The notes beneath the pieces are model-generated. The model did no database searches and was not told where the DNA came from. It worked only from the letters and a program-made list of their open reading frames with translations. Below, one piece after another: positions 21,047 through 37,674 of a stretch of 64,000 bases of DNA (its first letter is position 1; the number at the start of each line of letters is the position of its first letter). The position numbers were made by a program, and so were the translations under genes. Origin of the DNA: Woeseiaceae bacterium. Lineage in GTDB: Bacteria > Pseudomonadota > Gammaproteobacteria > Steroidobacterales > Woeseiaceae. The stretch covers positions 1 to 64,000 of the forward strand of contig JAJFKV010000004.1 of assembly GCA_021773055.1 (NCBI GenBank), in the 5' to 3' direction.

Positions 21047-21117
21047 TCAGGTCGCCGGCAGCTGACTCCGTCAGACGACCGATACGGATGCGTGCCAAGG
21101 CCCCGGGCACGAATCTA

Positions 21118-21159
21118 TTTACTTCAGGGCGTAAAGCAGTCCATAATGACAACGTTGTC
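21118..21159 (+). promoter_or_regulatory. nagB-II promoter with NagR-type operator
   Basis: The palindrome GACAACGTTGTC occupies 21148-21159. A promoter-like pair precedes it: TTTACT (21118-21123), 18-bp spacer, CATAAT (21142-21147), so a bound repressor would cover the start point. A GAGGG ribosome site (21166-21170) and the GTG start at 21177 follow. Confidence 0.7.
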
Positions 21160-21176
21160 TCGATAGAGGGCTGGCT

Positions 21177-22241
21177 GTGCAAGTTGTTGATAAACCCCGG
21201 GTGGGAAGCCTGAACCCGCAACACACGGCGATGTTCACGGAGGCGTCCGAGTCTGCGACGGTCGTAGAACGTCAGCTCGGAAAAAATCAAACAGCAGTCA
21301 GTGACATCGTAACCAGCCTGGTTCGGCATGAACCGCGAGCAGTGATCACTTGCGCCAGGGGCAGTTCGGACCATGCCGCCACCTTCTTTAAATATTTGGT
21401 CGAGTCGCAGCTTGGCGTGGTGACCTCGTCCGCGTCACCGTCAGTGCAATCGGTCTACAAGTCACAACAGCAACTTCGGGATACGTTGTACGTAACGATC
21501 ACTCAGTCAGGGAAAAGCCCCGACCTGTTGGACAATGCCAAACGGGCGAAAGACGCAGGTGCCAGAGTGCTTGTCCTCGTCAATGACGAAGAGTCGCCTA
21601 TTGTGCCGTTGGCAGATTTTGTTATTCCGTTGTGCGCCGGCAAAGAAAAAAGCGTCGCAGCGACGAAGTCTTTCATTGCTACGATTAGTGCCATGTTGCA
21701 CCTGGTCGCATTTTGGTCAGCGGACCCACGACTGAAAGAAGGCCTTTCTAGGTTACCTGAAGGCTTGCGTCAGACGTGGAGTTTGGATTGGCGGGCCGCG
21801 ATCGAAATGCTTATTGGTGCAAATAACCTGTTTGTGATTGGGCGAGGCCTGGGATTGGGGGTCGCGCAGGAAGCGGCGCTGAAGCTCAAAGAGGTTTGCG
21901 GCCTGCACGCCGAGGCGTTCAGCAGTGCGGAAGTAAGGCACGGACCGATGGCGCTGGTCGGCGACGGTTTTCCGGTGCTGGTACTGGCGCAGGGTGATGA
22001 AACCTTGCCCGGAACCGAGCAACTGGCAAGTGATTTTCGAGCGATGGGTGCCAATGTTTTGCTGGCCGCAGAAAATTACTCCGGAAAAAATGCATTGCCG
22101 GTCTCAAGCGGCTACCACTGTGCGATCCAACCGCTGTTGCTGATTCAGTCGTTTTATCGCATGAGCAACGAGCTCGCTATCCGGCGGGGCTTCAACCCCG
22201 ACCAGCCGCCGCACTTGAGAAAAGTGACAAGAACTGTCTGA
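21177..22241 (+). CDS. nagB-II: SIS-type glucosamine-6-phosphate deaminase
   Basis: 354 aa, two SIS domains. It follows the Shewanella NagB-II family: ARGSSDHAATFFKYLVE, ITQSGKSPDLLD, VAATKSF, VIGRGLGLGVAQEAALKLKEVCGLHAEAFSSAEVRHGP, and a C-terminal NPDQPPHLRKVTRTV. It lacks the glutamine amidotransferase half of GlmS, so it converts GlcN-6-P to fructose-6-P and ammonia in GlcNAc breakdown. The GTG at 21177 is preceded by GAGGG; an ATG at 21231 is an alternative. It overlaps nagA by 1 bp (TGATG). Confidence 0.92.
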   Translation: MQVVDKPRVGSLNPQHTAMFTEASESATVVERQLGKNQTAVSDIVTSLVRHEPRAVITCARGSSDHAATFFKYLVESQLGVVTSSASPSVQSVYKSQQQLRDTLYVTITQSGKSPDLLDNAKRAKDAGARVLVLVNDEESPIVPLADFVIPLCAGKEKSVAATKSFIATISAMLHLVAFWSADPRLKEGLSRLPEGLRQTWSLDWRAAIEMLIGANNLFVIGRGLGLGVAQEAALKLKEVCGLHAEAFSSAEVRHGPMALVGDGFPVLVLAQGDETLPGTEQLASDFRAMGANVLLAAENYSGKNALPVSSGYHCAIQPLLLIQSFYRMSNELAIRRGFNPDQPPHLRKVTRTV

Positions 22242-23383
22242 TGAAGAAAAGCCTGGTCAACGGCCGCATATTTACGGGTGAGCAGGTCCTCACCGGGCAT
22301 ACCATCGTTATCGAAGACCAGCGCATTCTGGGAGTCGTGCCGGACGATCAGGCTGGTGGCGCAAGTGAAGTCGTTGATCTAGAGGGCAATACAATCTTGC
22401 CAGGGCTGATAGATCTGCAGGTCAACGGTGGTGGTGGTGTGTTGTTCAACGATGCGCCGACGGCACAGGCAATTGGCCGAATATCCGCCGCGCATCGCCA
22501 ATTCGGGACGACCGCACTACTGCCAACATTGATCAGCGACGTACCAGAAAAAATGAGAGCTGCGATCACTGCAACAGACGAGGCAATTCGCAACTCGGTC
22601 CATTCGATTCCCGGAATTCACCTTGAAGGGCCATTCCTGAATGCGGCGCGCAACGGCGTGCACGACCCCGGCCATTTCCGCGAGTTGGACGACGAGGCGA
22701 TCCGTCTTGCGAGTTCGCTACAGCATGGCAAGACCTTACTGACGATAGCTCCAGAATGCGTGCAAGCAAAAGATATCAAACGACTGGTCGACGCCGGTGT
22801 GATTGTTGCGGCCGGGCATAGCGATGCCTCATATGAAATGCTCCGGTGTGCGATTGATGCCGGACTGCGTGGATTTACCCACTTGTTCAATGCGATGAGT
22901 CCCCTGACGAGCCGGGAACCGGGTGTGGTCGGTGCAGCGCTGGAAGATCAAGACAGTTGGTGCGGCGTAATTGCCGACGGTATCCATGTGCACTGGGCGA
23001 CACTCAGGTTGGCGCTGTCGGCGAAACAACGTGGCAAGGTGTTTCTTGTGACCGATGCGATGCCGCCAGTCGGTACCGACATCACAGAATTTCAGTTGCT
23101 CGGCGAAACCATATCCTGTAGCTCAAATGGCCTGACAAACGCACAAGGGCAGCTAGCCGGGTCCTCGCTCGATATGATTACTGCCGTTCGTAATGCTGTC
23201 GAGCATCTGAATGTTCATTGGGAGGAGGCTGTTCGCATGGCGAGCCAGTACCCGGCGGAGTTTCTCGGCATCGACTCGACCTACGGCAGGATCGAGCGCA
23301 ACTACATAGCAAACATGGTGCTCGTCGACGACGAACTTCAGGTCCTCGAAACCTGGGTGCTAGGCGCCCGTTTGCCGATATAG
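22241..23383 (+). CDS. nagA: N-acetylglucosamine-6-phosphate deacetylase
   Basis: 380 aa, amidohydrolase superfamily. It removes acetate from GlcNAc-6-P ahead of NagB-II. Metal and catalytic blocks are all present: GLIDLQVNGGGGVLFND, GIHLEGPFLN (Glu ligand), AAGHSDASYEM (His), FTHLFNAMSP (His) and FLVTDAMPPVGTD (catalytic Asp). Its start overlaps the stop of nagB-II, and its last 24 bp overlap the convergent symporter gene. Confidence 0.95.
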   Translation: MKKSLVNGRIFTGEQVLTGHTIVIEDQRILGVVPDDQAGGASEVVDLEGNTILPGLIDLQVNGGGGVLFNDAPTAQAIGRISAAHRQFGTTALLPTLISDVPEKMRAAITATDEAIRNSVHSIPGIHLEGPFLNAARNGVHDPGHFRELDDEAIRLASSLQHGKTLLTIAPECVQAKDIKRLVDAGVIVAAGHSDASYEMLRCAIDAGLRGFTHLFNAMSPLTSREPGVVGAALEDQDSWCGVIADGIHVHWATLRLALSAKQRGKVFLVTDAMPPVGTDITEFQLLGETISCSSNGLTNAQGQLAGSSLDMITAVRNAVEHLNVHWEEAVRMASQYPAEFLGIDSTYGRIERNYIANMVLVDDELQVLETWVLGARLPI

Positions 23384-25066
23384 CCTTGTGGTAAGCAACG
23401 CCGCTACGCTCATCACGATGAGCAGTCCCGTGGCCAGCAAGTAATCTTTGAACAGCAACGCACCGATGCCAAACAGGGCGGCGTAAACCCCAATCGTCGC
23501 TGCCAGGGTGGCACCGGCACCGCGGCGGATATCTGCTTTATCGACGTTGATGGAAGCATCAAATCGCCGCAAGGTCTCTGCATCGGATGGTGGCGTCAGC
23601 AATGTGACAATGACCCAGCCAACAGTCGTCAGTGCGACCGAAAAAATCAGTTTTTTCCAGCCGTCCAGGAACGCAAAATGACCAAATTCAAAATACATGC
23701 TAACGACGAATGACAGCACCATCGCCGATATTTCACTCCACACATTAATGCGGTGCCAAAACCATCGCAACAGAAAAAGCAAGCCGGTCCCGGCACCGAT
23801 ACTAAGCATCAGGCGAAACGCCTGCATGGCGCTTTCGAGCTTCAGCGCCAGCAGGCCGGCCAGCACCATCAGGACCACCGTTACAATCCTGCCGACCCGT
23901 ACCACTTGTTTATCTCCAGCATCCGGTGCAAGGAAACGTTTGTAGACGTCGTTGACAACGTAGGATGCACCCCAGTTCAGGCTGGTCGAAATAGTCGATA
24001 CATAGGCTGCAGCAAGCGATGCGACGACAATGCCGAGCATGCCGGATGGCACGTAGGCCAGCATTGCTGAATAGGCAAGATCATCCTTGACGAGGTCCGC
24101 GGACACGTGCGGCAAGGCCGATTGCAGGCTCGCAATGTCGGGAAATACGACGAGGGACGCAAGCGCAACGAGAATCCAGGGCCACGGGCGAATGGCATAG
24201 TGGCACACGTTGAAGAATGCCGAAGCGCCTACCGAGTGATTTTCGTCCTTGGCCGCCAGCATACGTTGCGCGATGTAGCCACCACCACCCGGTTCAGCTC
24301 CTGGATACCAGACGCTCCACCACTGGACCAGTAGTGGAATCAGCAACAGTGGCACATATTGATTGGGATCGGAGAAGTCCGGAAGAAACGAAATCTTATC
24401 TTGCAGGGCCGGGTGCGCGAGCAGGGCATCCAGCCCGCCAACGGCGGGGTGATTGACGGCAAAATAAGCCGCCAGGATCGAGCCGGCCATCGCCATGAAA
24501 AATAACAGAAAGTCAGTGATTAACACGCCGACGAAACCGCCCGCCGCACTGAATATTACGGTAATCAGTCCGGCCGTGATAATGACCGTTTCCGGTTCGA
24601 TCGCAAACAGGACACCACTGATTTTTATCGCGGCCAGAGTAACATTGGCCATGATCATGATATTGAAGAACAAGCCAAGATAGATGGCCCTGAAGCCACG
24701 CAGAAACCTGGCAGGCTTGCCACTGTAGCGTTGCTCGTAGAATTCAATATCCGTCGTAACGCCAAGTCGACGCCACAGCCGGGCATAGACAAAGGTCGTC
24801 AACATGCCGGTCACCAGGAAACACCACCAGACCCAGTTTCCAGAAATGCCCTGACTTCGTACTATCTGGGTTACGAGGTTCGGTGTGTCGGCCGCGAAGG
24901 TCGTGGCTACCATTGAAAATCCCAGTAACCACCACGGCATGTGGCGGTTGCCAAGGAAAAACGAGGCGCTATTTCGGCCGGCGCGTTTGCTAACCCAGAT
25001 ACCGACAAACAGAGTCATGCCCAGCGTGCCGATCACAATGCTCCAGTCGAGCAGAGATAGTTTCAT
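23360..25066 (-). CDS. Sodium:solute symporter (SSS family), probable GlcNAc carrier
   Basis: A 568-aa polytopic inner-membrane protein with about 13-14 helices. It has the SSS pattern: an early GTLGMTLFVGIWVSKRAGRNSASFFLGNR, SMVATTFAADTPNLVTQIVR, VVASLAAAYVSTISTSLNWGASYVVND (sodium-site Ser/Thr stretch). It lies 12 bp downstream of the kinase gene on the same strand, and the two share the operator at 26053. Given the cluster it most likely carries GlcNAc or a chitin/aminosugar product across the inner membrane, replacing the NagP porter of related genomes. Confidence 0.85.
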   Translation of the reverse strand: MKLSLLDWSIVIGTLGMTLFVGIWVSKRAGRNSASFFLGNRHMPWWLLGFSMVATTFAADTPNLVTQIVRSQGISGNWVWWCFLVTGMLTTFVYARLWRRLGVTTDIEFYEQRYSGKPARFLRGFRAIYLGLFFNIMIMANVTLAAIKISGVLFAIEPETVIITAGLITVIFSAAGGFVGVLITDFLLFFMAMAGSILAAYFAVNHPAVGGLDALLAHPALQDKISFLPDFSDPNQYVPLLLIPLLVQWWSVWYPGAEPGGGGYIAQRMLAAKDENHSVGASAFFNVCHYAIRPWPWILVALASLVVFPDIASLQSALPHVSADLVKDDLAYSAMLAYVPSGMLGIVVASLAAAYVSTISTSLNWGASYVVNDVYKRFLAPDAGDKQVVRVGRIVTVVLMVLAGLLALKLESAMQAFRLMLSIGAGTGLLFLLRWFWHRINVWSEISAMVLSFVVSMYFEFGHFAFLDGWKKLIFSVALTTVGWVIVTLLTPPSDAETLRRFDASINVDKADIRRGAGATLAATIGVYAALFGIGALLFKDYLLATGLLIVMSVAALLTTRLYRQTGA

Positions 25067-25078
25067 GGATAGCCTCTG

Positions 25079-26050
25079 TTATTCGTTAGGTGCACTGACG
25101 GATCCGATGGTCGTATGCAAACCCGCAGTGGCCGTGTCCTGAGTTTTCACCTGTTCTCGCGCGTACAGTACGGCGCCATCGAGAGGTGTATGTAATGCAG
25201 GTGATAGCATTTCCTGTACGTCCGTCGCCAGCCACGGTTCGATCGTCTGTCCCAGGCCGCCGACAAGCGATAGTCGTGTCGGGCGCAGACCCCAGATCGA
25301 TCGTGCCAGTGTTGATATATGACCGGCGCTATCGCGGACAATTGAGCAGGCCACCTCATCACCGTTGTTCGCCGCGGCAAATACCAACGGCGAAAGTCTG
25401 CCGTATTCATAAGGCTGTGCGCTCGCAAGTTTTTCAACAATGCCGATACCGGCAGCGTCAAAAAATGTATTCATATCTTCCTCGAGGACGGTAGACGGCC
25501 CAAGTTTGTCATAGGCAAGAAAACTCGCTCGTAATGCGGCAAGACCGATCCATGCGGCGCCGCCCTTGTCGCCAAACGGGAAACCAAATGCGCTATGAAT
25601 TCGTTGTGTGCCGCCAATACTCGAATAGCCACTGCACCCTGTTCCGGAAATGATAACCGCGCCCTCACTATTGCCATGAGACCCGTAACAGGCGATTTGC
25701 ATATCCGTCGTCAAATGCATGGAATGGTATGGATGTTGCCAATCTGCAATCGTCTCATAAGCAGCGGGAACATTGACTCCGGCCAGGCCGATACCGGCAA
25801 TGGCATGGGCGAAATCTGCGCGCCCAAGACCCGCATCGTTGAATGCTAGTTCGGTGGCCGCCAGTATTGAATTACGCGTGCGCTCAGGGTCTCGCAGCGG
25901 ATTGGCCGGCCCGGCCCGGCCGTTGCCAAGCACCTCGCCGGCGAATGAGACCAGTTGTGCCCGACAGCACGTACCGCCACCATCGATTCCGAGCAGGAAC
26001 CGGGCATTAGCGTGTTTTTGGGGCTCGCGGGCAGTCAATTCAGATTCCAA
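25079..26050 (-). CDS. nagK: BadF/BadG-type N-acetylglucosamine kinase
   Basis: 323 aa, ASKHA fold. The phosphate-1 motif FLLGIDGGGTCCRAQL, the ISGTGCSGYS phosphate-2 region and the LVGGLGQTIEPWL adenosine loop mark the BadF/BadG/BcrA family, which includes GlcNAc kinases of proteobacteria. It would turn cytoplasmic GlcNAc into GlcNAc-6-P for NagA. The frame start is TTG at 26050 with a very short leader and no clear ribosome site; a TTG at 26038 is an alternative. First gene of a two-gene unit with the symporter. Confidence 0.85.
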   Translation of the reverse strand: MESELTAREPQKHANARFLLGIDGGGTCCRAQLVSFAGEVLGNGRAGPANPLRDPERTRNSILAATELAFNDAGLGRADFAHAIAGIGLAGVNVPAAYETIADWQHPYHSMHLTTDMQIACYGSHGNSEGAVIISGTGCSGYSSIGGTQRIHSAFGFPFGDKGGAAWIGLAALRASFLAYDKLGPSTVLEEDMNTFFDAAGIGIVEKLASAQPYEYGRLSPLVFAAANNGDEVACSIVRDSAGHISTLARSIWGLRPTRLSLVGGLGQTIEPWLATDVQEMLSPALHTPLDGAVLYAREQVKTQDTATAGLHTTIGSVSAPNE

Positions 26051-26241: not shown

Positions 26242-26309
26242 GTTTTGCGAGCCTTGCTGTGACCCGACAACAATCGATCGATAAACCGGTTCTCCCGGGG
26301 GGAATATCC

Positions 26310-29237
26310 ATGAGTAACAAGAGAAAATCCAAGATCAAAGCACGGCGGTCTGACAAGGCTACTGTAAGCACTCAGGACAACGTCTTTGCAGGCGCGAAAA
26401 TGCTGCCACTGGCGCTCGCGGTGTCCAGCATCTGCGCCGGCGGCGCGTACGCACAGGATGCAAACGACCGTCGTCTGGACGAAATCATCGTTACCGCACA
26501 AAAGCGCGAGGAAAACCTCCAGGACGTACCGATCACAGTCAGTCATGTCAGTGGAGATCGGATGCGAGAGCAGGCGATTGAAACACTGAAGGACATCAAG
26601 CATCTCGTGTCCGGAATAGCGATACGAGAGAATAACGACCCCCGAAACATCGGCTTGTTCATCCGTGGCATCGGTTCGCTGCAGGCCTTCATCGGTATTG
26701 AGCCGGATGCGGCCGTTATAGTTGACGGTGAGGTGCTGGCGAGAAACTCCTCATTGTTCGGCGATGTCAACGATCTCGAATCTGTATCCATTCTCAAAGG
26801 TCCGCAGGGCACGTTGTTCGGTAAGAATACAGTTGCCGGCGCGATGGTGGTGACGACCCGACGGCCTTCGCTTACGGAAAATGGCGGCAATGTACGATTC
26901 ACTGTCGCGGAAAGTGGCGACGAAGGTCTCGGCGAATTTCACCTCGCAGGCACCTACAATTGGGTCACCAGCGATACTACAGCCCTGCGCGTGAACGCTT
27001 TCACGACCGAAAACGATGGCTGGGTAGAAAATGTACTCGACGGGCCAAACGGTGGCGAGTCAGATGCTTCGGGTATCCGTGCCCAGTTTTTGTACCAGCC
27101 GAGCGATAAGTTGAGCATGGTGTTTCGCGCTGAGGCCGCCGAACGAAACCTGGGGCCTGGTACTCGAGTATTTCTGAAGCGGGATGACTGGACGATAGGC
27201 AACAATTTTGGCCAGATTCCACAGGCCGTTGTCGATGGCTTGGGACTGACCGGGCAGGCGCTGGATAACCTGCTGATTACCAATCTGCACGAAATATCTC
27301 AAACGCCCACTGGACCTGAAAACGACAAGACTTCGGCAAAGAACAATCGTGATTATGGGTTTATCGATTCATCGGCCGCATCGTTCGAACTGAATTACGA
27401 TATGGACTCGGGACATCAACTCACGTTCACATCGCATTACCGCAACAGCGATCTCGAAACCAACGACTCACTATTGTCTACGGCGGTCGATGTATTCCCG
27501 CTGAACTTCGCCGGGCCGGTGAAAAGTGACTCGTTCCAGACTGAATTTCGTATTGCATCTCCGCTGGGTGACAAAGTCGATTATGTCGCGGGGCTGTTCT
27601 TCCTGCATTCCAAGATAACGCGCGAACAAAAAGCGCTTGCGTGTCAGGACTCGGGTCTTGAGAACAGCATCATCGATGCAAACTTCGAAATTACAAATTG
27701 TGGTGGCCTGCCATTTAACTTCGAGACCTTTCCCGGCGTCGCTGGTTTTGGCGGTCAGTTTTTTGATGACCTCATCTACAACCGCGAGCTCAAGAACAAT
27801 GACCTGATCAGTACCAATACCGCTGTGTTCGGCCAGCTGAATTTCCACTTCAACGATCAATGGACGGCCGTAGTTGGCGGTCGTTTGTTATACGAACACC
27901 AGGATTTCAGCATGGATGTTCGCGATGACGGCGTGCCGAATGTTGATGTTCGTCCACGATTGCTCTGGATTCTAGACGAAACCGGCAGGCGAATTAATCT
28001 GGACGGAGTTGGTCCGGCGTGGTTGGGGGTGTCGAACCCGTTCTTCGGCACGGTTACAGACAACCCAGCAACTGATCTTGATGCAAGAGATCCAAGCAAT
28101 GCATTCACAACGGTTCAGGCCGAAAACCGGGACACTGCATTCATCTATAAGACGGCGCTGCAATGGTCCCCGGCTGACGATGTGATGTTCTATACAAGTT
28201 ACAGTACGGGCTACAAGGGCGTTGGCTGGTTTACAGACAGCGATGTTCGTCAGGTCGATCTCGATAACAACTATCCGATACCGCCGGAGGAGTCGACCAA
28301 CTTCGAGGTAGGTATTCGCTCCGAATGGTTTGGCGGTGACTTACGTTTTAACGTCACCTTTTTCGATGCAGAATTTGAGCATTACCAGGAACGGATGAAT
28401 ACGCTTAACTTCGATTTATTTCCGGTTGTCAATGGCGGTTTGAAGAATATCGTCAATGACCCCAACGCGAGCGGGCAGCCCATCCGATTATTCGATATCG
28501 TTGATGCGGGCACGTTGGAGTCCAGTGGCATCGATGCGGAGATCAGCTGGAGCGCTACCGACTGGCTGACCCTGGGCAGTACCTGGAACCATGTGACCGC
28601 AGAGTTCGGTGACACGGATATCCTAATAACCTGTGGTCAGGCTCTGTCGAATACTGCGGCCAATGGCGGTACGACCGTGCCGACCTGTACTGACCCGATT
28701 AACTACGGTGAGTTCTTCGACTACACGTTCGGACGTTTCGGACAGTTTTTTGAGCTCGACGGCGCACAACTCGCGAACGCTCCTGAGGACACCGTCACCG
28801 CCGACGCACGGGTTGACTTCGAACTCGGCAGCTGGCATTCATATGTTCGTTGGAATTACCGCTATCAGACCGAAGAGTTTACGAATCACGGTGGCTTTGC
28901 CAACAATACACCGGGAACGACAGTTGATGCTTTCGGAATCCATAATCTCTTCATCGGCGCATCATCAGCAGACGGCAAGTATAATTTTACCCTATTCGTA
29001 AAGAACCTCTTCGACGAGAACTATTACTCACGTAAGACAACCTTCGGCGACGGCCTTGCAGAGCGTGCGGTCGGTGCATATCCCCTTGCCGTTCCGGAAC
29101 TCATCGGCGTAGCACAGGCATATCCCACCTACGGAGCTGTCCCGGATGGCCGTTTCTTCCGTCAACGCCCGGAACATGGCCAGGTACCGCGCGACTTTAA
29201 CCGCTACGTTGGTGCAACGTTTGAGATGCGTTTCTGA
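26310..29237 (+). CDS. TonB-dependent receptor of the GlcNAc/chitin regulon
   Basis: About 975 aa. A long basic signal region (MSNKRKSKIKARR... ending GAYAQ), TonB box DEIIVTAQKREENLQDVPITV, plug with RGIGSLQAFIGIEPDAAVIVDGE and LKGPQGTLFGKNTVAGAM, then the barrel ending in FEMRF. No STN domain, so it is not a transducer. The frame opens at 26259, but ATG 26310 lies behind GGGGGGAA. It is under two NagR-type operators, so its likely cargo is chito-oligosaccharide or another GlcNAc-bearing glycan. A perfect 11-bp hairpin follows its stop. Confidence 0.92.
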   Translation: MSNKRKSKIKARRSDKATVSTQDNVFAGAKMLPLALAVSSICAGGAYAQDANDRRLDEIIVTAQKREENLQDVPITVSHVSGDRMREQAIETLKDIKHLVSGIAIRENNDPRNIGLFIRGIGSLQAFIGIEPDAAVIVDGEVLARNSSLFGDVNDLESVSILKGPQGTLFGKNTVAGAMVVTTRRPSLTENGGNVRFTVAESGDEGLGEFHLAGTYNWVTSDTTALRVNAFTTENDGWVENVLDGPNGGESDASGIRAQFLYQPSDKLSMVFRAEAAERNLGPGTRVFLKRDDWTIGNNFGQIPQAVVDGLGLTGQALDNLLITNLHEISQTPTGPENDKTSAKNNRDYGFIDSSAASFELNYDMDSGHQLTFTSHYRNSDLETNDSLLSTAVDVFPLNFAGPVKSDSFQTEFRIASPLGDKVDYVAGLFFLHSKITREQKALACQDSGLENSIIDANFEITNCGGLPFNFETFPGVAGFGGQFFDDLIYNRELKNNDLISTNTAVFGQLNFHFNDQWTAVVGGRLLYEHQDFSMDVRDDGVPNVDVRPRLLWILDETGRRINLDGVGPAWLGVSNPFFGTVTDNPATDLDARDPSNAFTTVQAENRDTAFIYKTALQWSPADDVMFYTSYSTGYKGVGWFTDSDVRQVDLDNNYPIPPEESTNFEVGIRSEWFGGDLRFNVTFFDAEFEHYQERMNTLNFDLFPVVNGGLKNIVNDPNASGQPIRLFDIVDAGTLESSGIDAEISWSATDWLTLGSTWNHVTAEFGDTDILITCGQALSNTAANGGTTVPTCTDPINYGEFFDYTFGRFGQFFELDGAQLANAPEDTVTADARVDFELGSWHSYVRWNYRYQTEEFTNHGGFANNTPGTTVDAFGIHNLFIGASSADGKYNFTLFVKNLFDENYYSRKTTFGDGLAERAVGAYPLAVPELIGVAQAYPTYGAVPDGRFFRQRPEHGQVPRDFNRYVGATFEMRF

Positions 29238-29253: not shown

Positions 29254-29296
29254 ATAGGTCACGGTACCCCCCCGATGTGCCGTGACCTATTCTTTG
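29254..29296 (+). terminator. Hairpin after the TBDR, possible attenuator
   Basis: ATAGGTCACGG (29254-29264) pairs perfectly with CCGTGACCTAT (29280-29290) around a 15-base loop. The bases after it (TCTTTG) are only weakly T-rich. It may end most transcripts while letting some continue into the sulfotransferase genes, or protect the TBDR message 3' end. Confidence 0.55.
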
Positions 29297-29321
29297 AATT
29301 GGTACGCAATCCTGGCAACGC

Positions 29322-31031
29322 GTGCTTGCAACAATGCTAGTCTCATTGCAAGAATGTGACTCGACAACGATAGCGTTTTCTGCCATGGCCACACAAACAG
29401 AAACCACCCTGAGTACCACCAGGCAACAGCGCTACCTGCGTCGTGCCAGAGCGGCCAGCGAGACCGATCCGTTTCTCGCTCTCGATAACGTGCACAAGCT
29501 GTTGGACGCCGGAGTCAGGACCGCAGAGATATATCACCTGCAGGCGACCCTCCTGCTAAAGCTCGGCTGTGGAACATTCGCAGCGCGGGCTGCCGAAAGT
29601 GCGCTGGACGCCGGTGCCGACAAAGCCACCATAATGTTACTGCTGCTTAACTGCTACCTGGCGGCATACCACAGAAAGCCGGCCGCTAAACTAATACCTC
29701 ATATCCTGAAGCTCGACGATTTGCCGCCGGAGGCGAAGTCGGATGTGGCGCACGGAGCACAGGAGATACACCAGTATGAGCTCGCCGAGTCTCTTTATCG
29801 TGATCTCCTTGCCGACGACCCCGCGAGCAGCAAGTTGCTTATCAATCTCGGCTACGCCTTCCAGAAGCAGGGGCAGATGGAAAGTGCGGTTGATTGTTAC
29901 CTCCGGGCGGTGGAAAGCAATCCGGAGTCCGCGAATGCTTACAAATTATTGTCATCGGTCGACAAACAAACAGCGGGCAACAATTACCTCAAGATCATGC
30001 TCGATGCCTTTCCGGACTTCGAAGAAGGCTCGGACGAATTCGTCACCGCAGCCTATGCGCTCGGGAAAACCTACGAGGACCTGAAGGACTATGACAGCGC
30101 GTACCACTACCTGAAAGCGGGCGGTGACGCCATGCGACCGAAGTCGCCATACAGCTCAGCAAGCACGGCGAAAGCATTTGCAATAACAAAGGACTATTTT
30201 GCGAATCCAACCCCGCCCGGGACGCCGCCGACAGAAATGTCAGAGCAACAGGCACCGTTGTTCATCCTCGGTATGCCACGGACGGGCTCAACGCTAGTGG
30301 ACCGAATTTTATCGAGCCACCCGGACGTCGTTTCAATGGGCGAACTGGGTTGCTTCAAGGAATCGATGAAAGTCCTGACGGGATTCGGCGGCGGTGTTGG
30401 ATTTCATGAACACTTTTACGGTCAGCCCGAGCGCGAGATCGATCTTACGCGGCTTGGCCAGTTGTATGTCGATTCGGCAGGCCCTGAAGAATTCGGCGGA
30501 CGGTATTTCATTGATAAGTACCCAATGAACTTCATGGACCTCGGCCTGATTGCAAAAGCGCTGCCGCAGGCCCGTTTCATTCACACACTGCGTGATCCGA
30601 TGGACACTTGCTTTTCAAATTTCAAACAGCTTTTCACACTGGGTTTCTACCACTATTCCTACTCAGTACAGGAATGCGCGGAATACTATCTCTTGTACAA
30701 GGATCTGATGGAATTCTGGGCTAAACAGTTGCCGGGCCGCATTCTCAACGTTCAGTACGAGAGCGTGGTCGCCGATACCGAAACGCAGGTACGCCGGTTA
30801 CTGCAATTCTTGGGCCTGGAATGGAACGATGCGTGCTTGAATTTTCACCGCAACAAAAGCCCGGTTGACACCGCCAGCCTGAGCCAGGTGCGACAGCCCA
30901 TTTACAAGTCGGCGATTCGCCATTGGACGAATTACAGGCCGTACTTGCAGGACGCGATTGACGTATTTGATAACGCCGGCTTTCCGGTAGACGGCAACGA
31001 ACACAATGCGACAACGGAGATAGTCGCATGA
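29322..31031 (+). CDS. TPR-containing sulfotransferase
   Basis: Up to 569 aa. The first half is a TPR solenoid (for example the LINLGYAFQKQGQMESAVDCYLRAVESNPESANAYKLL repeat). The second is a PAPS-dependent sulfotransferase domain: 5'-phosphosulfate loop LFILGMPRTGSTLVDRIL (around residue 317) and 3'-phosphate region FIHTLRDPMDTCFSNF. No signal peptide, so cytoplasmic. The layout is that of bacterial tyrosylprotein-sulfotransferase-like proteins; the TPRs may hold a protein substrate. ATG 29385 (MATQTETT) is a likely alternative start. The stop overlaps the dioxygenase gene by 4 bp (ATGA). Confidence 0.85.
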   Translation: MLATMLVSLQECDSTTIAFSAMATQTETTLSTTRQQRYLRRARAASETDPFLALDNVHKLLDAGVRTAEIYHLQATLLLKLGCGTFAARAAESALDAGADKATIMLLLLNCYLAAYHRKPAAKLIPHILKLDDLPPEAKSDVAHGAQEIHQYELAESLYRDLLADDPASSKLLINLGYAFQKQGQMESAVDCYLRAVESNPESANAYKLLSSVDKQTAGNNYLKIMLDAFPDFEEGSDEFVTAAYALGKTYEDLKDYDSAYHYLKAGGDAMRPKSPYSSASTAKAFAITKDYFANPTPPGTPPTEMSEQQAPLFILGMPRTGSTLVDRILSSHPDVVSMGELGCFKESMKVLTGFGGGVGFHEHFYGQPEREIDLTRLGQLYVDSAGPEEFGGRYFIDKYPMNFMDLGLIAKALPQARFIHTLRDPMDTCFSNFKQLFTLGFYHYSYSVQECAEYYLLYKDLMEFWAKQLPGRILNVQYESVVADTETQVRRLLQFLGLEWNDACLNFHRNKSPVDTASLSQVRQPIYKSAIRHWTNYRPYLQDAIDVFDNAGFPVDGNEHNATTEIVA

Positions 31032-31636
31032 ACTTTGAAGGGGATGCCATTAAGCATGGCAAATTCGATATTTCCGAACTCCGGGAAAGGGTCGCCGGCT
31101 TTGCGGAAGACGAATGGCAGGAGGATACGAGCAGGCAGGAAAGATTCGAAGCGCATACCGATACACAAACCATAAAACTGCTGTTTGATCCGGACTATCG
31201 CCACACCAATCCGACCGCGCACCCATCGTTGCAGGAATTCGCCAGCCTGATCGAACCTCTGCACAGTCACATTTTCGCTACGTTTAGCAAGACTATGCGA
31301 CAACGCAAACTGATTCGGAAAAATGGGCCGGGGTACTTTATTCGCATCGTGCTCACACGCCTCGCTGCGAACAGCAAGATTACACCGCATGTCGACGACG
31401 GAGAGTCGTTAAGACTCTGTCATCGCATTCATGTACCAATCATAACCAATGAAGACTGCTTTTTTTGCGTTGGTGAATCGAGGATACATATGCGCGCCGG
31501 TGAGATGTGGGAAATCAACAACCGCCTTGTGCACCACGTCGAAAATGGCGGCGATCACGCGAGGGTGCATCTGATTCAGGACTTTGTACAACCCGGCGAA
31601 AATGTTTTTGATCACGACGGACCAATGGTTGCCTGA
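31028..31636 (+). CDS. Aspartyl/asparaginyl beta-hydroxylase-type dioxygenase
   Basis: 202 aa, cupin-fold Fe(II)/2-oxoglutarate oxygenase of the Asp/Asn hydroxylase family. Visible ligands: His121 with Asp123 (TPHVDDG), a second His at 169 or 170 (NNRLVHHVENGG) and Arg179 (HARVHLIQDF) for 2-oxoglutarate. The MRAGEMWEINN block before the second His is family-typical. No signal, so cytoplasmic. Family members hydroxylate Asp/Asn/His side chains of proteins or free amino acids. It is translationally coupled to the TPR-sulfotransferase, which suggests a shared substrate. Confidence 0.85.
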   Translation: MNFEGDAIKHGKFDISELRERVAGFAEDEWQEDTSRQERFEAHTDTQTIKLLFDPDYRHTNPTAHPSLQEFASLIEPLHSHIFATFSKTMRQRKLIRKNGPGYFIRIVLTRLAANSKITPHVDDGESLRLCHRIHVPIITNEDCFFCVGESRIHMRAGEMWEINNRLVHHVENGGDHARVHLIQDFVQPGENVFDHDGPMVA

Positions 31637-31708
31637 GCAGGTTGCTTTGGGTAAACATTGTAATAATATCGATCGCCACATGTACGGCGATTCAATGGAG
31701 TAAAGGCA

Positions 31709-32164
31709 ATGACGGACGCAGAAACCGATGCGAGACAGGATTTCCAGACGAAACGGATTTTCGTTAAGGACTTCTCTTTTGAGGCACCTGGAGGCACCAG
31801 CACATTTACCAACCCGTGGGAGCCGGAGGTAAGCATTGATGTCGAAGTTAGCACTGACGAACTGGGTGATGACTACCACGAAGTCGTACTGACATTGACA
31901 GTAACCGTTACCAATGCTGCGACGACGGCCTTCATGACTGAGATATTGCAAGGCGGTATCTTTCTTTGCAGTGGATTCAGTGGCAGCGATTTGCACCGAA
32001 TTTTACATACGGTTTGTCCAAACCTGTTATTTCCATATGCGAGCGAAGCTGTCGACGGCATGACGCTCAAAGGCAGTTTCCCGGCCCTTATGCTACAGCC
32101 CGTAAATTTCAATGCGCTGTACGAGCAAAACAAACCCGAAGAGCAGGCGGAGAGCGGCGATTAA
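31709..32164 (+). CDS. secB: SecB-family export chaperone (paralogue)
   Basis: 151 aa against 155 for Escherichia coli SecB, alignable from end to end: RIFVKDFSFEAPGG, WEPEVSIDVEVSTDELGDDYHEVVLTLTVTVTN, AFMTEILQGGIFLCSG, CPNLLFPYASEAV and GSFPALMLQPVNFNALYEQ. SecB keeps outer-membrane and periplasmic precursors unfolded and passes them to SecA. The housekeeping secB normally sits with grxC/gpsA, not here. Its place between a dioxygenase and a sulfotransferase behind a 975-aa TBDR argues for a client-dedicated copy. AAAGG precedes the ATG. Confidence 0.9.
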   Translation: MTDAETDARQDFQTKRIFVKDFSFEAPGGTSTFTNPWEPEVSIDVEVSTDELGDDYHEVVLTLTVTVTNAATTAFMTEILQGGIFLCSGFSGSDLHRILHTVCPNLLFPYASEAVDGMTLKGSFPALMLQPVNFNALYEQNKPEEQAESGD

Positions 32165-33113
32165 CCTGCGCTTACGCAAAGCCGTACGACGACTCGCCAA
32201 TCAGGTCTCCGCAGGCGAGTTGAGCGACTGTTTTGCGAATCCGGTATTTATCGTGTCGGCGCCGAGAGCCGGGAGTACGTTGCTGTTCAGTCTGTTGTCG
32301 GAGAGTCCGGATATATGGACAATTGGTGGTGAGAGTCACGGCATATACGCCCAGTTTCCGCACCTCGTGGGGCAAGACGCAAATTTCGCGTCCGGACGGC
32401 TGGATGCTTCGCACGCGGATGAACGCACTTGCCAACAGATGAGGTTGTGCTATCTCGCGCTGGCCAAGGACAGGTCCGACCGACGCCTGCTAAATGAAGT
32501 CAAGGAAGGCCGCGCGCAAGACTACGTTTTTCTGGAAAAAACGCCAAGGAACTCACTCAACCTGGGCTTCCTGCAGGCCGTGTTTCCGGAAGCGAGGTAT
32601 ATCTACTTGCATCGCGATCCACGCGAAAATATCAGCAGCATCATGGAAGGCTGGGAGCTCGGCGGAAAGTCAGGTGAGTTCGTAACTTTTAGAAACCTTC
32701 CTGATTGGCCGCTTGGATACTGGTGCTTCCTGTTGCCGCCGAACTGGGCCTCATTGAAAGGTCGTCCTATCGAAGAAATCGCCGCCTTCCAATGGCAGGA
32801 ATGCAACGAAATCATATTGGAAGATCTGTCGAGTCTGCCTTCGGACCGCTGGACCAGTATTTCCTATAGCGACCTAATCGGGAGTCCTTCTGAAGAGCTG
32901 CAGCGCCTCTGTGACTTTTGCGGCGCGGGCAGCGGAGACTATTTGCTCCGCAGGACCGAGGACAACCTGCCTTTGTCGGCATCGACGATATCACCGCCGC
33001 GCAAGAACAAGTGGAAACGACACGAGGCTGAAATAGCCGGTGTTCTGCCGGGGCTGGCAAATACGATGACACGCATCGAGAACGCGCATACAGCAAGTGG
33101 GATGGGGACGTGA
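32112..33113 (+). CDS. Second PAPS-dependent sulfotransferase
   Basis: Up to 333 aa, without TPRs. The 5' loop is VFIVSAPRAGSTLLFSLL (Ser49 to Thr56), and the 3'-phosphate region is ARYIYLHRDPRENISSIM after FLEKTPRNSLNLGFL. The ATG at 32112 lies inside the secB gene (53-bp overlap); a TTG at 32220, just ahead of the conserved domain, is an alternative, so the N-terminus is uncertain. No signal peptide. The stop is 8 bp before the hexosaminidase start. A substrate cannot be named; the local setting allows a protein or a glycan. Confidence 0.82.
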   Translation: MRCTSKTNPKSRRRAAINLRLRKAVRRLANQVSAGELSDCFANPVFIVSAPRAGSTLLFSLLSESPDIWTIGGESHGIYAQFPHLVGQDANFASGRLDASHADERTCQQMRLCYLALAKDRSDRRLLNEVKEGRAQDYVFLEKTPRNSLNLGFLQAVFPEARYIYLHRDPRENISSIMEGWELGGKSGEFVTFRNLPDWPLGYWCFLLPPNWASLKGRPIEEIAAFQWQECNEIILEDLSSLPSDRWTSISYSDLIGSPSEELQRLCDFCGAGSGDYLLRRTEDNLPLSASTISPPRKNKWKRHEAEIAGVLPGLANTMTRIENAHTASGMGT

Positions 33114-33121
33114 GAGGCCTA

Positions 33122-35743
33122 ATGACACGCTCTATGCCGGCGATGGCTCTGAACCTGATCGTGCTATTGAGTCTGGTTGCACTGGGCGCATGCGACTCTG
33201 AGCGAACGGTCGGCACAAGCCGTGTGTCCGAGATTACCCAGGAACAGCTGGACGATTTGGCAGCATCGCTGGATGTGCGCTACACGGTTATCAATAATCT
33301 TGAAAAGGGACGTTGTGGCAAAGCGGGCAGATGTTTTTCTGTGAAAATAGTCCTGACCTCGCCCGAGGCAGTCTCCGCCAGTGGCTGGCAGCTCTATTTT
33401 AGCCAGTATTTTCCGTTGCACGAGGTCGTTAGTGACGAGTTTATTGTTGATACGATTAACGGAGACCTGAAACGCATCGTGCCCAGTGAAAATTACCGCC
33501 GTTTCAAAAGAGGGCAGAGCAAAGAATTAACACTGTATCTTGCCGGAACGCATGGCAATGAATTCGAGGCGATGCCGAACTACTATGTCGTTGCCGATGG
33601 TTTGGAGCCGCGGCTTGTAGAGAGCACCGTGCCAACACAAGATCCGCAGACCGGCCTGGAAATCATGCCGCACCTGGTTGGTTTCACTGATGCCGAGCGG
33701 CAGTTTCGAATATCCGACGCCGAGAAGATCGAGTGGGCAACAAGCTCGGTGTTGTACGAAAGAAACGAGAATACTGTGCTCGATCCGGGGGCTGTTGCCA
33801 GCGATATCATTCCGACGCCGTTGGCTTTCGAGCTGGATTCCGAGGGCGAGAAGCTGGATCTGGCCAGCGGAATCTCGGTCGCGCTGCAGGGCGTGGACCG
33901 GGATCACATCGCCACGGCTCTGGACCGGCTCGGCCGCTTCGGCGTCGACGAGAACCAATCCGGCGTGCCCCTGACAATCAGTGTTATCCCTTCGAAGACA
34001 GCGATCCCGGGTGCCTATTCTCTGCTGATAGAACGCGAATTCATCAACATAGAAGCGGTCGACGCGGCGGGTGCTTTTTACGCATTGCAGTCTGTTGCGG
34101 GACTCATGAGCATCGGTGATGTGCGGATCCCATTGGCAATGATTACTGACCAACCACGTTACGGATTTCGTGGAATACACATTGATGTGGCGCGAAACTT
34201 CCATTCCAAAGAGCTCATTTTACGTCTCATTGAGCAAATGGCGGCGTACAAGCTGAACAAGCTGCACTTTCATTTGGGTGATGACGAAGGCTGGAGAATG
34301 GAGATTCCAGGCTTGCCCGAACTGACAGACGTCGGCAGCCGCCGCTGTCATGATGAGTCGGAATCGACTTGCCTGTTGCCACAACTGGGTTCCGGCCCTT
34401 TCGGCGATAGTGCTGTCAACGGTTACTATTCGGTTTCTGACTATCAGGAAATACTCGCTGCCGCGACCGCGCACCACGTCCAGGTAATTCCTTCCTTCGA
34501 TATGCCCGGACATTCACGTGCAGCGGTCAAGTCCATGGAGGCTCGTTATCGGAAGCTGCGCGAAGCTGGTGACAGGCAGGAGGCAACTCGATACCTGTTA
34601 ACAGACCTGGACGACAAGAGTAGATACAACAGCATTCAGAACTACACTGACAATACGATAAACGTCTGCATGCAATCGTCGTACGCATTCGTCGACAAGG
34701 TGGTATCGGAACTGCAAGAAATACATGCGATTGCCGGCCACCCCCTGACGCGTTATCACATTGGGGCGGACGAAACTGCGGGTGCGTGGAAAGATTCCCC
34801 GGCGTGCGAGCGCTTTCTTGCGGAAAATAGCGACGGTGTTGATCGAGTTGATCAGTTGGGAGCCTATTTCATTGAGCGGGTTGCGGGCGTGCTGGCCAGC
34901 AAAGGCATTGAGCCAGCGGGTTGGGGTGACGGTATGGGGCATACCGACGCGGAACGAATGCCGGCCATCGTTCAGTCCAATGCCTGGGGGCGCCTGATCG
35001 ACCCGGCACACGTTGCGGCGCACAAACAGGTCAACGATGGCTGGCAAGTCGTAATATCCGTCCCCGATGCAACTTACTTCGATTTTCCCTATGAGGCGGA
35101 TCCTAAGGAACGGGGTTTTTATTGGGCGTCGCGGCAAACCAATAGCCGCAAGGTTTTCGAGTTCATGCCGGATAACCTGCCCGCGCACGCTGAATTCTGG
35201 ACCGATTCGGAAGGCCTGGATATGCAATTGAACGACCAGAATCCGATGCAGAAGGGCGCTGGATTCGTGGGACTTCAGGGGCACTTTTGGTCGGAGACAT
35301 TACGCACCGATGAGCAGCTCGAATACATGGCTTTCCCGCGCCTGCTGGCCTTGGCCGAGCGTGCCTGGCACGCGGCGTCATGGGAGGTTCCTTACGATCA
35401 CGCGGGAGCAAATTACGACCCGACCAGTGGCCGTTTCACGAGTGAGATGCGGCAGCGACGAGACCGAGAATGGAATCGCTTTGCGAACCTCGTTGCTGGC
35501 AAGGAACTTGCGAAACTCGATCATGCAGGCCTTCATTACCGTATACCGACGGTCGGAGCGAAGTTGATTGAAGGAATACTGCACTGCAACCTGATTTTTC
35601 CGGGGCTGGCAATCGAATACCGATTGGGCGAGGCCGAGTGGCAAGTCTATTCCAGTCCTGTTCCCGCAGGCGATGCGGCCATTGAAGTGAGAGCCGTTTC
35701 CGCCGATGGCAAGCGCAAAGGGCGGCCGCTTCAGGTGCAATAG
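33122..35743 (+). CDS. Beta-N-acetylhexosaminidase lipoprotein (GH20)
   Basis: About 873 aa. Lipoprotein signal (LVALGAC), an N-terminal chitobiase-type carbohydrate-binding domain (about 35-180), a GH20b domain (PTPLAFELDSEG... to GAFYALQSVAGL) and the catalytic barrel (YGFRGIHIDVARNFHSKELILRLIEQMAAYKLNKLHFHLGDDEGWRMEI). The acid pair is Asp-Glu in HIGADETAGAW (about 550-551). A C-terminal Ig-like chitobiase domain closes it. It releases GlcNAc from chito-oligosaccharides, feeding the Nag genes. GAGAGG precedes ATG 33122; a GTG at 33110 overlaps the previous stop. Confidence 0.93.
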   Translation: MTRSMPAMALNLIVLLSLVALGACDSERTVGTSRVSEITQEQLDDLAASLDVRYTVINNLEKGRCGKAGRCFSVKIVLTSPEAVSASGWQLYFSQYFPLHEVVSDEFIVDTINGDLKRIVPSENYRRFKRGQSKELTLYLAGTHGNEFEAMPNYYVVADGLEPRLVESTVPTQDPQTGLEIMPHLVGFTDAERQFRISDAEKIEWATSSVLYERNENTVLDPGAVASDIIPTPLAFELDSEGEKLDLASGISVALQGVDRDHIATALDRLGRFGVDENQSGVPLTISVIPSKTAIPGAYSLLIEREFINIEAVDAAGAFYALQSVAGLMSIGDVRIPLAMITDQPRYGFRGIHIDVARNFHSKELILRLIEQMAAYKLNKLHFHLGDDEGWRMEIPGLPELTDVGSRRCHDESESTCLLPQLGSGPFGDSAVNGYYSVSDYQEILAAATAHHVQVIPSFDMPGHSRAAVKSMEARYRKLREAGDRQEATRYLLTDLDDKSRYNSIQNYTDNTINVCMQSSYAFVDKVVSELQEIHAIAGHPLTRYHIGADETAGAWKDSPACERFLAENSDGVDRVDQLGAYFIERVAGVLASKGIEPAGWGDGMGHTDAERMPAIVQSNAWGRLIDPAHVAAHKQVNDGWQVVISVPDATYFDFPYEADPKERGFYWASRQTNSRKVFEFMPDNLPAHAEFWTDSEGLDMQLNDQNPMQKGAGFVGLQGHFWSETLRTDEQLEYMAFPRLLALAERAWHAASWEVPYDHAGANYDPTSGRFTSEMRQRRDREWNRFANLVAGKELAKLDHAGLHYRIPTVGAKLIEGILHCNLIFPGLAIEYRLGEAEWQVYSSPVPAGDAAIEVRAVSADGKRKGRPLQVQ

Positions 35744-35751
35744 CGCAGATC

Positions 35752-37674
35752 ATGTCGAATCCGGTTCAATTCAAGATCAAGCATAGTGGCATAATGACAA
35801 CTGCGCCGGCGGTACTGGCCCTTGTCCTGGTAGCACTCCTTTCTGGATGTGGAGGCGGTGGGGGCGCAGGAACTACTGCCGGTTCCGGAGCATCGTTGCT
35901 TACCGCTCCCGTAGCGGACGCCGGTGCGGGCGGCAATTTTTCTGCGGGCGACACGGTGCGCATGGATTGCAGCGGCAGCAGCGACCCTCAGGGCGACGCT
36001 CTGACGTTTCAGTGGGAGCAAACTGATGGTCCGCTTGTGCAGCTAAGCGACAAGGCCGCATGCAATCCGACGTTTACGGCACCGGACGCGACTGCGACGC
36101 TGGTCTTCCGTCTTGAGGCAAGGGACGCTCAGGAAGTAAGCATAGATAAAGTGGCGTTTGGCATAACCGGTACGGTACCGATACCTCCGATCTCGTTCGA
36201 GGACGCGGGGTTGGCGATGGGCATCGAACCCTATTCGATGGCTATCGGCCCACATGCCGGTATCGCGCTTGAGGATTACAACGACGATGGACTCATCGAC
36301 ATCTTCGTTCCGAATGGCGAGGGGTTTCCGGATCAGCTGTACGCAAATCAGGGTGATGGGAGGTTTGCGGAAATTGCGGAGAGTGTCGGGCTGGCATCGC
36401 TACAGAATCATCGTAGCGCCTTGTGGATGGACTACGACGGTGACCACGATCTTGATCTGGTCATTGGCGGGGACTGCCGGGAGGATCCGGTTACGGTTGC
36501 CAGTTGCGATGATCCGGAAAACCTGTGGCTGTATCGGCAAACCTCAAGCGGCGAATTCGAGGACGTTACTGTGGCCACTGGTCTGGACACGATCTGGGGA
36601 GGTACGGCGGACTGGCATCGCGGCGGATTTTCGGCCGGCGATATCGACAATGACGGTTATCTCGAGCTGCTGGTCATCGGCTGGCAGGATCGCGCACATC
36701 TGTTTCAAAACAACACGGATGGCACGTTCACAGAGATCACGGTCGCTGCCAATCTTTCCGATGCAGTACTTGCCTACCAACAAACCGTATTTCATGATTT
36801 TAATCGCGACGGCTGGATGGACGTTTATTTCGCGATTGATGGCCTCGTACCGAACCGGCTATACATTAATCAGAAGGACGGCACATTCGTAGACATGGCA
36901 ACGAATGCCGGCGTTGACTACGCATCAACCGACATGGGTATCGCGTTAGGTGATGTCAACAACGACGGTCAAGTCGATATGTATGTCACGGAGATTACCC
37001 AATTCGTTGCAGGCGAATATCACCATAATCAGCTGTATTTGAACGATGCGATAGCGCCGGGTCCGTCGTTTACAGAAGCATCCGAATTGTTTGGCGCGCA
37101 AAACGGCTACTGGGGCTGGGGCGCGACTTTTATCGACTACGACAACGACGGTTGGCAGGACCTTGCGACGACGAACGGTAAAAACTGGCCGGTCTGGATG
37201 ATGGATAAATCCAGGCTTTGGCGCAACACCGGGATAGTCGGGAGGGCATTCGACGAGGTATCGATACCGGCGCAATTCGACGACGACTATATTGCCGCCG
37301 GGCTTGTGGCGGCCGATCTGGATCGTGATGGTGATATGGATCTGGTTCAAACGACGAGTGAAGGCGGTCCATTACGGGTCCTGCGCAACGATGCCAGTGG
37401 CACTTCGAATAATTACATCGCGATTCGACCGCGTATGGCGGGGGCGAATCACTGGTCAATCGGTGCGATCGTGACCATTGAATTCCAGGCGATGCGTTCG
37501 AGCCGCGTCATTACCGCGGGAACGAGTACCGACTCACAAGAGCCAGCGGAGGCACATTTCGGTCTTGGAGGCGCTGAGACTATTGACCGCCTAATTGTTG
37601 ACTGGCCGGGCGGGATGCAAACCGTTTACGTGGGCTTGAGGGCAAATCAAGTTCATTTGATTACCCTCGATTAG
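35752..37674 (+). CDS. FG-GAP/UnbV-repeat lipoprotein (CRTAC1-type)
   Basis: 640 aa. Lipoprotein signal ending LLSGC followed by a glycine linker, a PKD-like Ig domain (about 50-140: ADAGAGGNFSAGDTVRMDCSGSSDP), then repeats with calcium-loop signatures such as YNDDGLIDIF, DYDGDHDLDLVIGG, DIDNDGYLELL, DVNNDGQVDMYV and DRDGDMDLVQ, that is a beta-propeller of FG-GAP units. The end (HFGLGGAETIDRLIVDWPGG) is the ASPIC/UnbV domain. Probably a calcium-binding surface protein that binds glycan or protein. It lies 8 bp behind the hexosaminidase gene. ATG 35794 is an alternative start nearer the signal. Confidence 0.88.
   Translation: MSNPVQFKIKHSGIMTTAPAVLALVLVALLSGCGGGGGAGTTAGSGASLLTAPVADAGAGGNFSAGDTVRMDCSGSSDPQGDALTFQWEQTDGPLVQLSDKAACNPTFTAPDATATLVFRLEARDAQEVSIDKVAFGITGTVPIPPISFEDAGLAMGIEPYSMAIGPHAGIALEDYNDDGLIDIFVPNGEGFPDQLYANQGDGRFAEIAESVGLASLQNHRSALWMDYDGDHDLDLVIGGDCREDPVTVASCDDPENLWLYRQTSSGEFEDVTVATGLDTIWGGTADWHRGGFSAGDIDNDGYLELLVIGWQDRAHLFQNNTDGTFTEITVAANLSDAVLAYQQTVFHDFNRDGWMDVYFAIDGLVPNRLYINQKDGTFVDMATNAGVDYASTDMGIALGDVNNDGQVDMYVTEITQFVAGEYHHNQLYLNDAIAPGPSFTEASELFGAQNGYWGWGATFIDYDNDGWQDLATTNGKNWPVWMMDKSRLWRNTGIVGRAFDEVSIPAQFDDDYIAAGLVAADLDRDGDMDLVQTTSEGGPLRVLRNDASGTSNNYIAIRPRMAGANHWSIGAIVTIEFQAMRSSRVITAGTSTDSQEPAEAHFGLGGAETIDRLIVDWPGGMQTVYVGLRANQVHLITLD

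Follow-up and report, generated by a model that had tools for sequence, protein, structure and literature searches.

Organization of the locus

The window analysed here is a 64,000-nucleotide stretch of contig JAJFKV010000004.1 from a Woeseiaceae bacterium (genome G000, ~89% complete), and the subject is a cassette of four genes encoding a TPR-sulfotransferase (TPR-ST), an Fe(II)/2-oxoglutarate (2OG) oxygenase, a SecB protein (module SecB) and a second sulfotransferase (ST2). All four genes adjoin one another on the forward strand behind a gene for a TonB-dependent receptor (TBDR), and their Pfam scores exceed the curated cut-offs (Table 1), in agreement with an original prediction made from the sequence alone. 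That prediction had begun the locus at position 29254, which lies out of the TPR-ST frame; the first in-frame start is at 29322. It had also described the genes as coupled by overlaps, and this stands for the TPR-ST/oxygenase junction, which together with the ST2/GH20 junction shows one of the two clear overlaps (4 bp each). The oxygenase and SecB genes are separated by a gap of 72 bp, and the 53-bp overlap of SecB with ST2 hinges on an uncertain ST2 start, the relatives of ST2 starting near or past the SecB stop. A hydropathy scan of the first 70 residues gave 12-residue maxima of 0.14–1.66 for the four cassette proteins versus 2.07 for the TBDR, 2.86 for the GH20 protein and 3.02 for the FG-GAP protein, so that by this measure the four cassette proteins appear to lack signal peptides, as had been proposed.

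Table 1 Features of the receptor–cassette locus in the window.
Feature	Position	Strand	Pfam match
TonB-dependent receptor (TBDR), presumed cassette substrate	26259..29237, probable start 26310	+	PF07715 7.1e-14, PF00593 2.8e-25
TPR-sulfotransferase (TPR-ST)	29322..31031	+	PF13469 4.9e-49 plus TPRs
Fe(II)/2OG oxygenase, Asp_Arg_Hydrox family	31028..31636	+	PF05118 7.9e-15
Second SecB (module SecB)	31709..32164	+	PF02556 1.9e-44
Second sulfotransferase ST2, start uncertain	32112..33113	+	PF13469 1.7e-28
GH20 beta-hexosaminidase, probable lipoprotein	33110..35743	+	PF00728 9.2e-89
FG-GAP/ASPIC surface lipoprotein	35752..37674	+	PF13517 5.7e-43, PF07593 8.3e-14
N-acetylglucosamine (GlcNAc) context: LacI-type regulator, NagB-II-like, NagA, sodium/solute symporter (-), NagK-like kinase (-)	19994..26050		

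The module SecB is a second copy of separate descent

Exactly two SecB matches are present in the genome of the window, the cassette copy and G000:C9:133549, and five further genomes that carry the module likewise contain exactly two each. A single-copy SecB, one of the results named in the original prediction as refuting it, is therefore ruled out for every module genome tested. Among 60 relatives, including the genome of the window, SecB was found in 56, with two matches in only four of them (G000, G027, G013 and G002); those of G002 are contig-end fragments. Both SecBs of G013 (G013:C119:33111 and G013:C222:2630) group with housekeeping ones and may stem from contamination or simple duplication.

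In a tree built from 28 SecBs, that of locus L174 not among them, the seven module SecBs form one clade (support 100/99). The module SecBs of alphaproteobacterial hosts are placed on the gammaproteobacterial side, far from the housekeeping SecBs of the same hosts, which fall the other way (100/100). The module SecB matches PF02556 with 151 bits (cut-off 26), and its residues D21 and E78, which we take to be the acidic residues that contact SecA, are invariant across nine SecBs including those of E. coli and the housekeeping copy of the same genome. On these comparisons, the module SecB is a true second copy and not the housekeeping orthologue. A SecB of the toxin-antitoxin-chaperone (TAC) type was ruled out by the neighbouring genes. 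The SecB of the window is flanked on both sides by identified enzymes, and in the other loci the oxygenase lies upstream and ST2 downstream, except for GH20 in L055 and an unidentified open reading frame (ORF) in L059. Three of 28 plasmid SecB records and one E. coli record were examined, and these showed housekeeping or unrelated surroundings and no further modules.

Conservation and spread of the cassette

When species genomes were scanned with an alignment of the oxygenase, 226 relatives came up, and the best 80 of them form the set of 80 loci used below. The order TBDR, TPR-ST, oxygenase, SecB and ST2 is kept in L054, L055, L056, L057 and L058, with the exceptions that the L056 contig stops at TPR-ST, that GH20 lies upstream on the opposite strand in L058 and that L055 differs as described below. 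L174, from the order of Sphingomonas, holds a full cassette. In L059 (Asticcacaulis sp. AC466), the oxygenase and SecB are adjacent with 55% and 41% identity to those of the window, accompanied by a TPR-ST at 29% identity and a TBDR unmatched by that of the window; ST2 was not found at this locus. Order and adjacency persist at 43–54% identity across classes in L058, the locus of the cultured Sphingomonas hylomeconis, and divergence runs in parallel in all parts of the cassette, GH20 included. The neighbourhood, whose lack of conservation would have counted against the original prediction, is conserved across two classes, and by these sequence comparisons the cassette is conserved, mobile and jointly inherited.

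The cassette is rare. A profile of the module oxygenases (E ≤ 1e-35) matched 4 of the 249 Asticcacaulis-order genomes, 5 of the 346 from the Sphingomonas order and, among 369 from gammaproteobacteria, a single one, that of the window; the full cassette or the L059 form accounts for three, two and one of these matches, respectively. Because the search centres and profile seeds are among the matches, just one full cassette, that of G367 (L174), is new. The GH20 gene adjoins the cassette in the window, L054–L057 and L174 and lies nearby in L058. The FG-GAP lipoprotein was found in the window, L054 and L055 only (3 of 8 module loci, all gammaproteobacterial copies) and is probably lineage-specific and outside the core of the cassette.

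Features of the modifying enzymes

The predicted model of TPR-ST comprises a TPR superhelix (approximately residues 32–294) followed by a domain resembling protein-tyrosine sulfotransferases (PTST; approximately residues 305–566), which in the model appears closer to these enzymes than to sulfotransferases of carrier-bound chains or glycans. This Sulfotransfer_3 domain carries an Arg, a Glu and a Lys like those of the tyrosylprotein sulfotransferases (TPSTs), the Arg presumably belonging to the site for the sulfate donor PAPS and the Glu and Lys being presumably catalytic. The invariant S519 lies near the place of the TPST catalytic Ser, toward the C-terminal end, but aligned with no TPST Ser, and its assignment as that residue was dropped. 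The TPST-like fold combined with the TPR arm suggests polypeptide substrates.

The oxygenase matches PF05118 with 55.5 bits (cut-off 22.6), and its H121, D123, H169 and R179 (HxD...H plus Arg) are invariant in 14 of 14 aligned relatives and in 7 of 7 module members. The genus-mate G027 carries an orthologue with 91% identity. Relatives of ST2 (216 and 181 bits) are fused to an oxygenase domain in two plasmid proteins; these single-protein fusions of oxygenase and Sulfotransfer_3 domains occur on plasmids of Asticcacaulis sp. DW145 and Diaphorobacter, suggesting that the two domains perform consecutive steps on one substrate. On the Diaphorobacter plasmid (L034:3122-7635), the fusion lies beside a divergent IPTL-CTERM protein. 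On the Caenibius plasmid p1 (L035:7926-8465), a related oxygenase is found amid phage capsid and DNA-stabilisation genes, with a GNAT acetyltransferase adjoining.

TPR-ST matched 47 plasmid records. Among four neighbourhoods that were opened, a TBDR adjoins in L147 and an autotransporter in L149, and a TBDR is also present on a fifth, Asticcacaulis plasmid. L149 (Lelliottia plasmid, L149:4503-10683) has TPR-ST, a TPR protein annotated as glycosyltransferase family 8 and the autotransporter in a row, and similar TPR-ST matches occur on Kluyvera and Enterobacter 638 plasmids.

Association of the enzymes with TonB-dependent receptors

To describe the surroundings of the oxygenase, we used the 36 of 80 loci that have at least 9.5 kb of sequence on both sides; the other 44 fall short on a side. 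TBDR, sulfotransferase and halogenase counts are phmmer matches at E ≤ 1e-5, some of the seeds having come from these very loci and a few of the matches having been checked against Pfam, and the 80 loci are not independent because they are the best of 226 and include many related Woeseiaceae. In the 36 loci, the number of ORFs within 5 kb versus at 5–10 kb was 34 versus 3 for TPR-ST, 7 versus 0 for ST2, 11 versus 3 for halogenase-like proteins and 5 versus 0 for SecB. A TBDR was present within 5 kb in 24 of the 36 loci and a GH20 in 5. Across all 80 loci, TPR-ST lies within 5 kb in 50 and a TBDR in 40, and in 7 neither a sulfotransferase nor a TBDR nor a halogenase lies that close, 4 of the 7 having less than 5 kb of sequence on a side. 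When family-2-like proteins ('STf2') are included, any sulfotransferase is found in 69 of 80 loci, an upper value because the seed from L059 matches nothing in Pfam. The set formed by this oxygenase and the sulfotransferases is associated with TBDRs, and what accompanies it most often is a surface protein exported through Sec, chiefly a TBDR.

The recurrence of TPR-STs near TBDRs, which the original prediction had pointed out, is quantified by these loci and by distances within the genome of the window. There, 5 of the 7 sulfotransferase loci, with 7 of the 9 genes, are no more than 7 kb from one of 40 TBDR plugs, a position shared by 12.8% of the genome (P = 0.0006 by loci); a limit of 5.5 kb leaves 4 of 7 loci (P = 0.003) and 4 of 9 genes (P = 0.009), both limits having been chosen after the positions were seen. 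Elsewhere in this genome (G000:C39:51744-63654), two TBDR plugs are followed by two Sulfotransfer_3 genes.

A candidate pathway for receptor modification before export

Taken together, we favour the view, with a probability of roughly 0.52, that the four genes form a mobile tailoring cassette that modifies an outer-membrane receptor before export. Dedicated enzymes that by hydropathy lack signal peptides and a private holdase are co-inherited with one receptor, and modification of that receptor before export is therefore the best explanation; the presence of SecB in the cassette points to an export precursor. The TBDR as the substrate and the timing before export are what we infer from this arrangement, as are the residues changed, the ligand of the receptor and the purpose of the modification. 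The original prediction had named the TBDR or the FG-GAP lipoprotein as the protein modified. The TBDR is retained as the best reading, and the FG-GAP lipoprotein is disfavoured as a general substrate because of its occurrence in so few module loci.

In the proposed pathway, the TBDR would be made in the cytoplasm and kept unfolded by the module SecB. The TPR arm of TPR-ST would grip the chain while the PTST-like domain transfers sulfate to side chains, Tyr being the simplest case, and the oxygenase would hydroxylate side chains, Asp or Asn judging by the family name. ST2 could then add a second sulfate, perhaps on a hydroxyl freshly made by the oxygenase. SecB would finally deliver the modified precursor to SecA/SecYEG, and the receptor, now complete, would assemble in the outer membrane. 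A more detailed version, which we hold to be doubtful, is a hydroxylate-then-sulfate relay on the SecB-held TBDR, in which the oxygenase would hydroxylate Asp/Asn or another side chain, ST2 would sulfate the new hydroxyl and TPR-ST would sulfate further residues to yield sulfated extracellular loops, with SecB dedicated to a modification pathway and Trp halogenases replacing TPR-ST beside other TBDRs.

The receptor is probably one for chito-oligosaccharides or GlcNAc glycans. In the upstream cluster, whose predicted GlcNAc context is borne out, NagA alone scores above its curated cut-off; the NagB-II-like protein, NagK-like kinase, symporter and LacI-type regulator are below the cut-offs of the models that they match. 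TBDRs like that of the window were detected in 2 of 196 Sphingomonas-order genomes (E ≤ 1e-100) and in 2 of 60 relatives including the genome of the window (E ≤ 1e-80), and all four genomes carry the cassette. No close TBDR relative lacking the cassette was found for comparison in these two samples, in which up to 4 or 14 candidates were scored per genome, a depth at which one could have been missed. The conserved Tyr/Asp/Asn motifs that had been suggested for the receptor loops are weak. In the predicted model (mean pLDDT 62, with the loops as the low-confidence parts), 16 of 26 Asp positions in loops are invariant versus 22 of 49 elsewhere, a weak difference given without a significance test. 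The last of the predicted loops contains Tyr955 and Tyr958 of the window protein, within A-Y-P-T-Y-G.

Several observations weigh against modification of the TBDR by this cassette. Only 2 of 8 Tyr positions in the predicted loops are invariant versus 8 of 18 elsewhere, with no conserved Tyr motif standing out. TBDR ORFs are less sharply enriched around the oxygenase than TPR-ST (24 within 5 kb and 13 at 5–10 kb in the 36 loci); in 12 of these loci no TBDR was found within 5 kb, and 2 have no TBDR, sulfotransferase or halogenase. SecB lies within 5 kb of the oxygenase in only 6 of 80 loci and is thus not generally needed, L175 combines a related oxygenase, a TBDR and TPR-ST without SecB, and L055 is without ST2. 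Two of the four opened plasmid TPR-ST loci (L146 and L148) have no surface protein alongside. The best solved relatives of the oxygenase by sequence are proline-hydroxylating enzymes, followed by a 'beta-hydroxylase' listed without a named substrate (E = 2.8e-4 to 0.008, weak), and its NCBIfam matches, a nonproteinogenic amino-acid hydroxylase and LpxO, are far under cut-off. The GH20 protein, nearly always present and exported judging by its lipoprotein-like start, is itself a possible substrate.

The kinship of the oxygenase with proline hydroxylases also fits the strongest of the alternatives, an unlikely one in our view, in which the product or target of the cassette is a small molecule, a peptide or a glycan of the surface tied to the TBDR cargo (for example, a ligand carrying sulfate and hydroxyl groups that the TBDR takes up again, or sulfated chito-oligosaccharides) and SecB merely aids export of an abundant receptor. 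The nearest solved relatives of ST2 are CurM and olefin-synthase sulfotransferases, which presumably act on carrier-bound chains, matches to the nodulation protein NoeE are present although weak and far below cut-off, and some loci with the oxygenase and ST2, such as L071, show no TBDR within 10 kb. However, a Pfam scan of the eight proteins at 25–38 kb, which did not reach down to ORFs as short as that of a precursor peptide, revealed no domain of a non-ribosomal peptide synthetase, polyketide synthase or exporter. The upstream genes are catabolic, the modelled TPR-ST domain is closer to protein-tyrosine sulfotransferases than to those of carrier chains or glycans, and this alternative gives the co-inherited private SecB clade no role.

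Somewhat less likely still is a different exported substrate, first and foremost the GH20 lipoprotein, or modification of several envelope proteins, the TBDR then being only co-regulated. The persistence of GH20 at the module loci is consistent with this, as is the position of TPR-ST and oxygenase relatives beside the autotransporter and the IPTL-CTERM protein, but in the wider set the exported partner is far more often a TBDR than GH20, and the TBDR subfamily was not found apart from the cassette in the samples scored. In the least likely alternative, a transferred island for GlcNAc use carries SecB and the enzymes along as hitchhikers; SecB would boost the export of a TBDR made in very large amounts, while the sulfotransferases would act elsewhere. 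This would account for the joint divergence of the whole block and for the extra SecBs known in other bacteria (PMC4257090), but it is disfavoured by the order and adjacency kept in L058, by L059, which holds the oxygenase and SecB together despite a different TBDR and TPR-ST, and by the fusions that link oxygenase and sulfotransferase to each other.

Comparison with known systems

We found no description of a cassette of TBDR, sulfotransferase, oxygenase and SecB in the open-access literature, as the original prediction had supposed, and no open-access paper that assigns a substrate to TPR-sulfotransferases encoded next to TBDRs. The closest parallel is provided by dedicated, often co-encoded NGT (HMW1C) or BAHT enzymes, which glycosylate autotransporters and TpsA adhesins in the cytoplasm before export; the accessible part of the source leaves open how such enzymes interact with chaperones and targeting factors and mentions no dedicated SecB gene (PMC8151025). 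The cassette shares with these systems the co-encoding of a surface protein with enzymes that appear, by hydropathy, to lack signal peptides, and the proposed action of dedicated cytoplasmic enzymes before export. It differs in having sulfotransferases and an oxygenase instead of glycosyltransferases, no domain of which was detected in the four cassette proteins by Pfam and NCBIfam scans, and in being paired with a TBDR instead of a type 5 secreted protein. By analogy, the cassette would represent a new form of pre-export modification, a process already known with glycosyltransferases.

RaxST of Xanthomonas is likewise a bacterial sulfotransferase that acts on Tyr, there of the secreted peptide RaxX, a precursor of 60 residues for which a type I exporter of its own is proposed, unlike the cassette. 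To our knowledge, the RaxST/RaxX system has no TPR arm, oxygenase, SecB or TBDR. No exporter for a RaxX-type arrangement is present among the proteins scanned at 25–38 kb, a scan that left very short ORFs aside. Eukaryotic TPST1/2 are Golgi membrane enzymes, whereas in the bacterial TPR-ST a predicted TPR superhelix precedes the sulfotransferase domain and the hydropathy scan showed no membrane segment.

More than one solitary SecB is reported in 26 of 1631 genomes, and the roles proposed for the extra copies include export of specific substrates, with no dedicated client assigned save for the toxin-antitoxin type in the part of the source available (PMC4257090). The module SecB resembles solitary and TAC SecBs in accompanying a housekeeping copy, but it is fixed in a cassette of receptor and enzymes, with no toxin-antitoxin genes adjoining in the window. 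The cassette ties solitary SecBs, orphan halogenases, TPR-STs beside TBDRs and the delivery of exported proteins to cytoplasmic modifying enzymes to one receptor. If receptors are chemically edited before export, their ligand range, the docking of phages and bacteriocins and nutrient capture could depend on enzymes outside transporter annotation. Should the relay be true, and Trp halogenases act likewise, receptor tailoring would constitute a widespread unrecognised class of chemistry that explains orphan halogenases by TBDRs.

The native substrate of the flavin-dependent halogenases BrvH and Xcc4156 is not known according to the portions seen of PMC7336383 and PMC5945002, and the term 'TonB' is absent from these texts. 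Unlike the BrvH/Xcc4156 case, the cassette in the window is without a halogenase; the likeness lies in the related oxygenase loci L062, L063 and L173, whose clusters offer a possible clue to the substrate of orphan halogenases. Each of these clusters (L062:10001-20572, L063:8127-20572 and L173:9238-16672) combines a related oxygenase and a TBDR with one to five halogenase-like genes, one of which was checked as PF04820. ST2 is included in the L062 and L173 clusters, and a TPR-fused oxygenase in that of L063.

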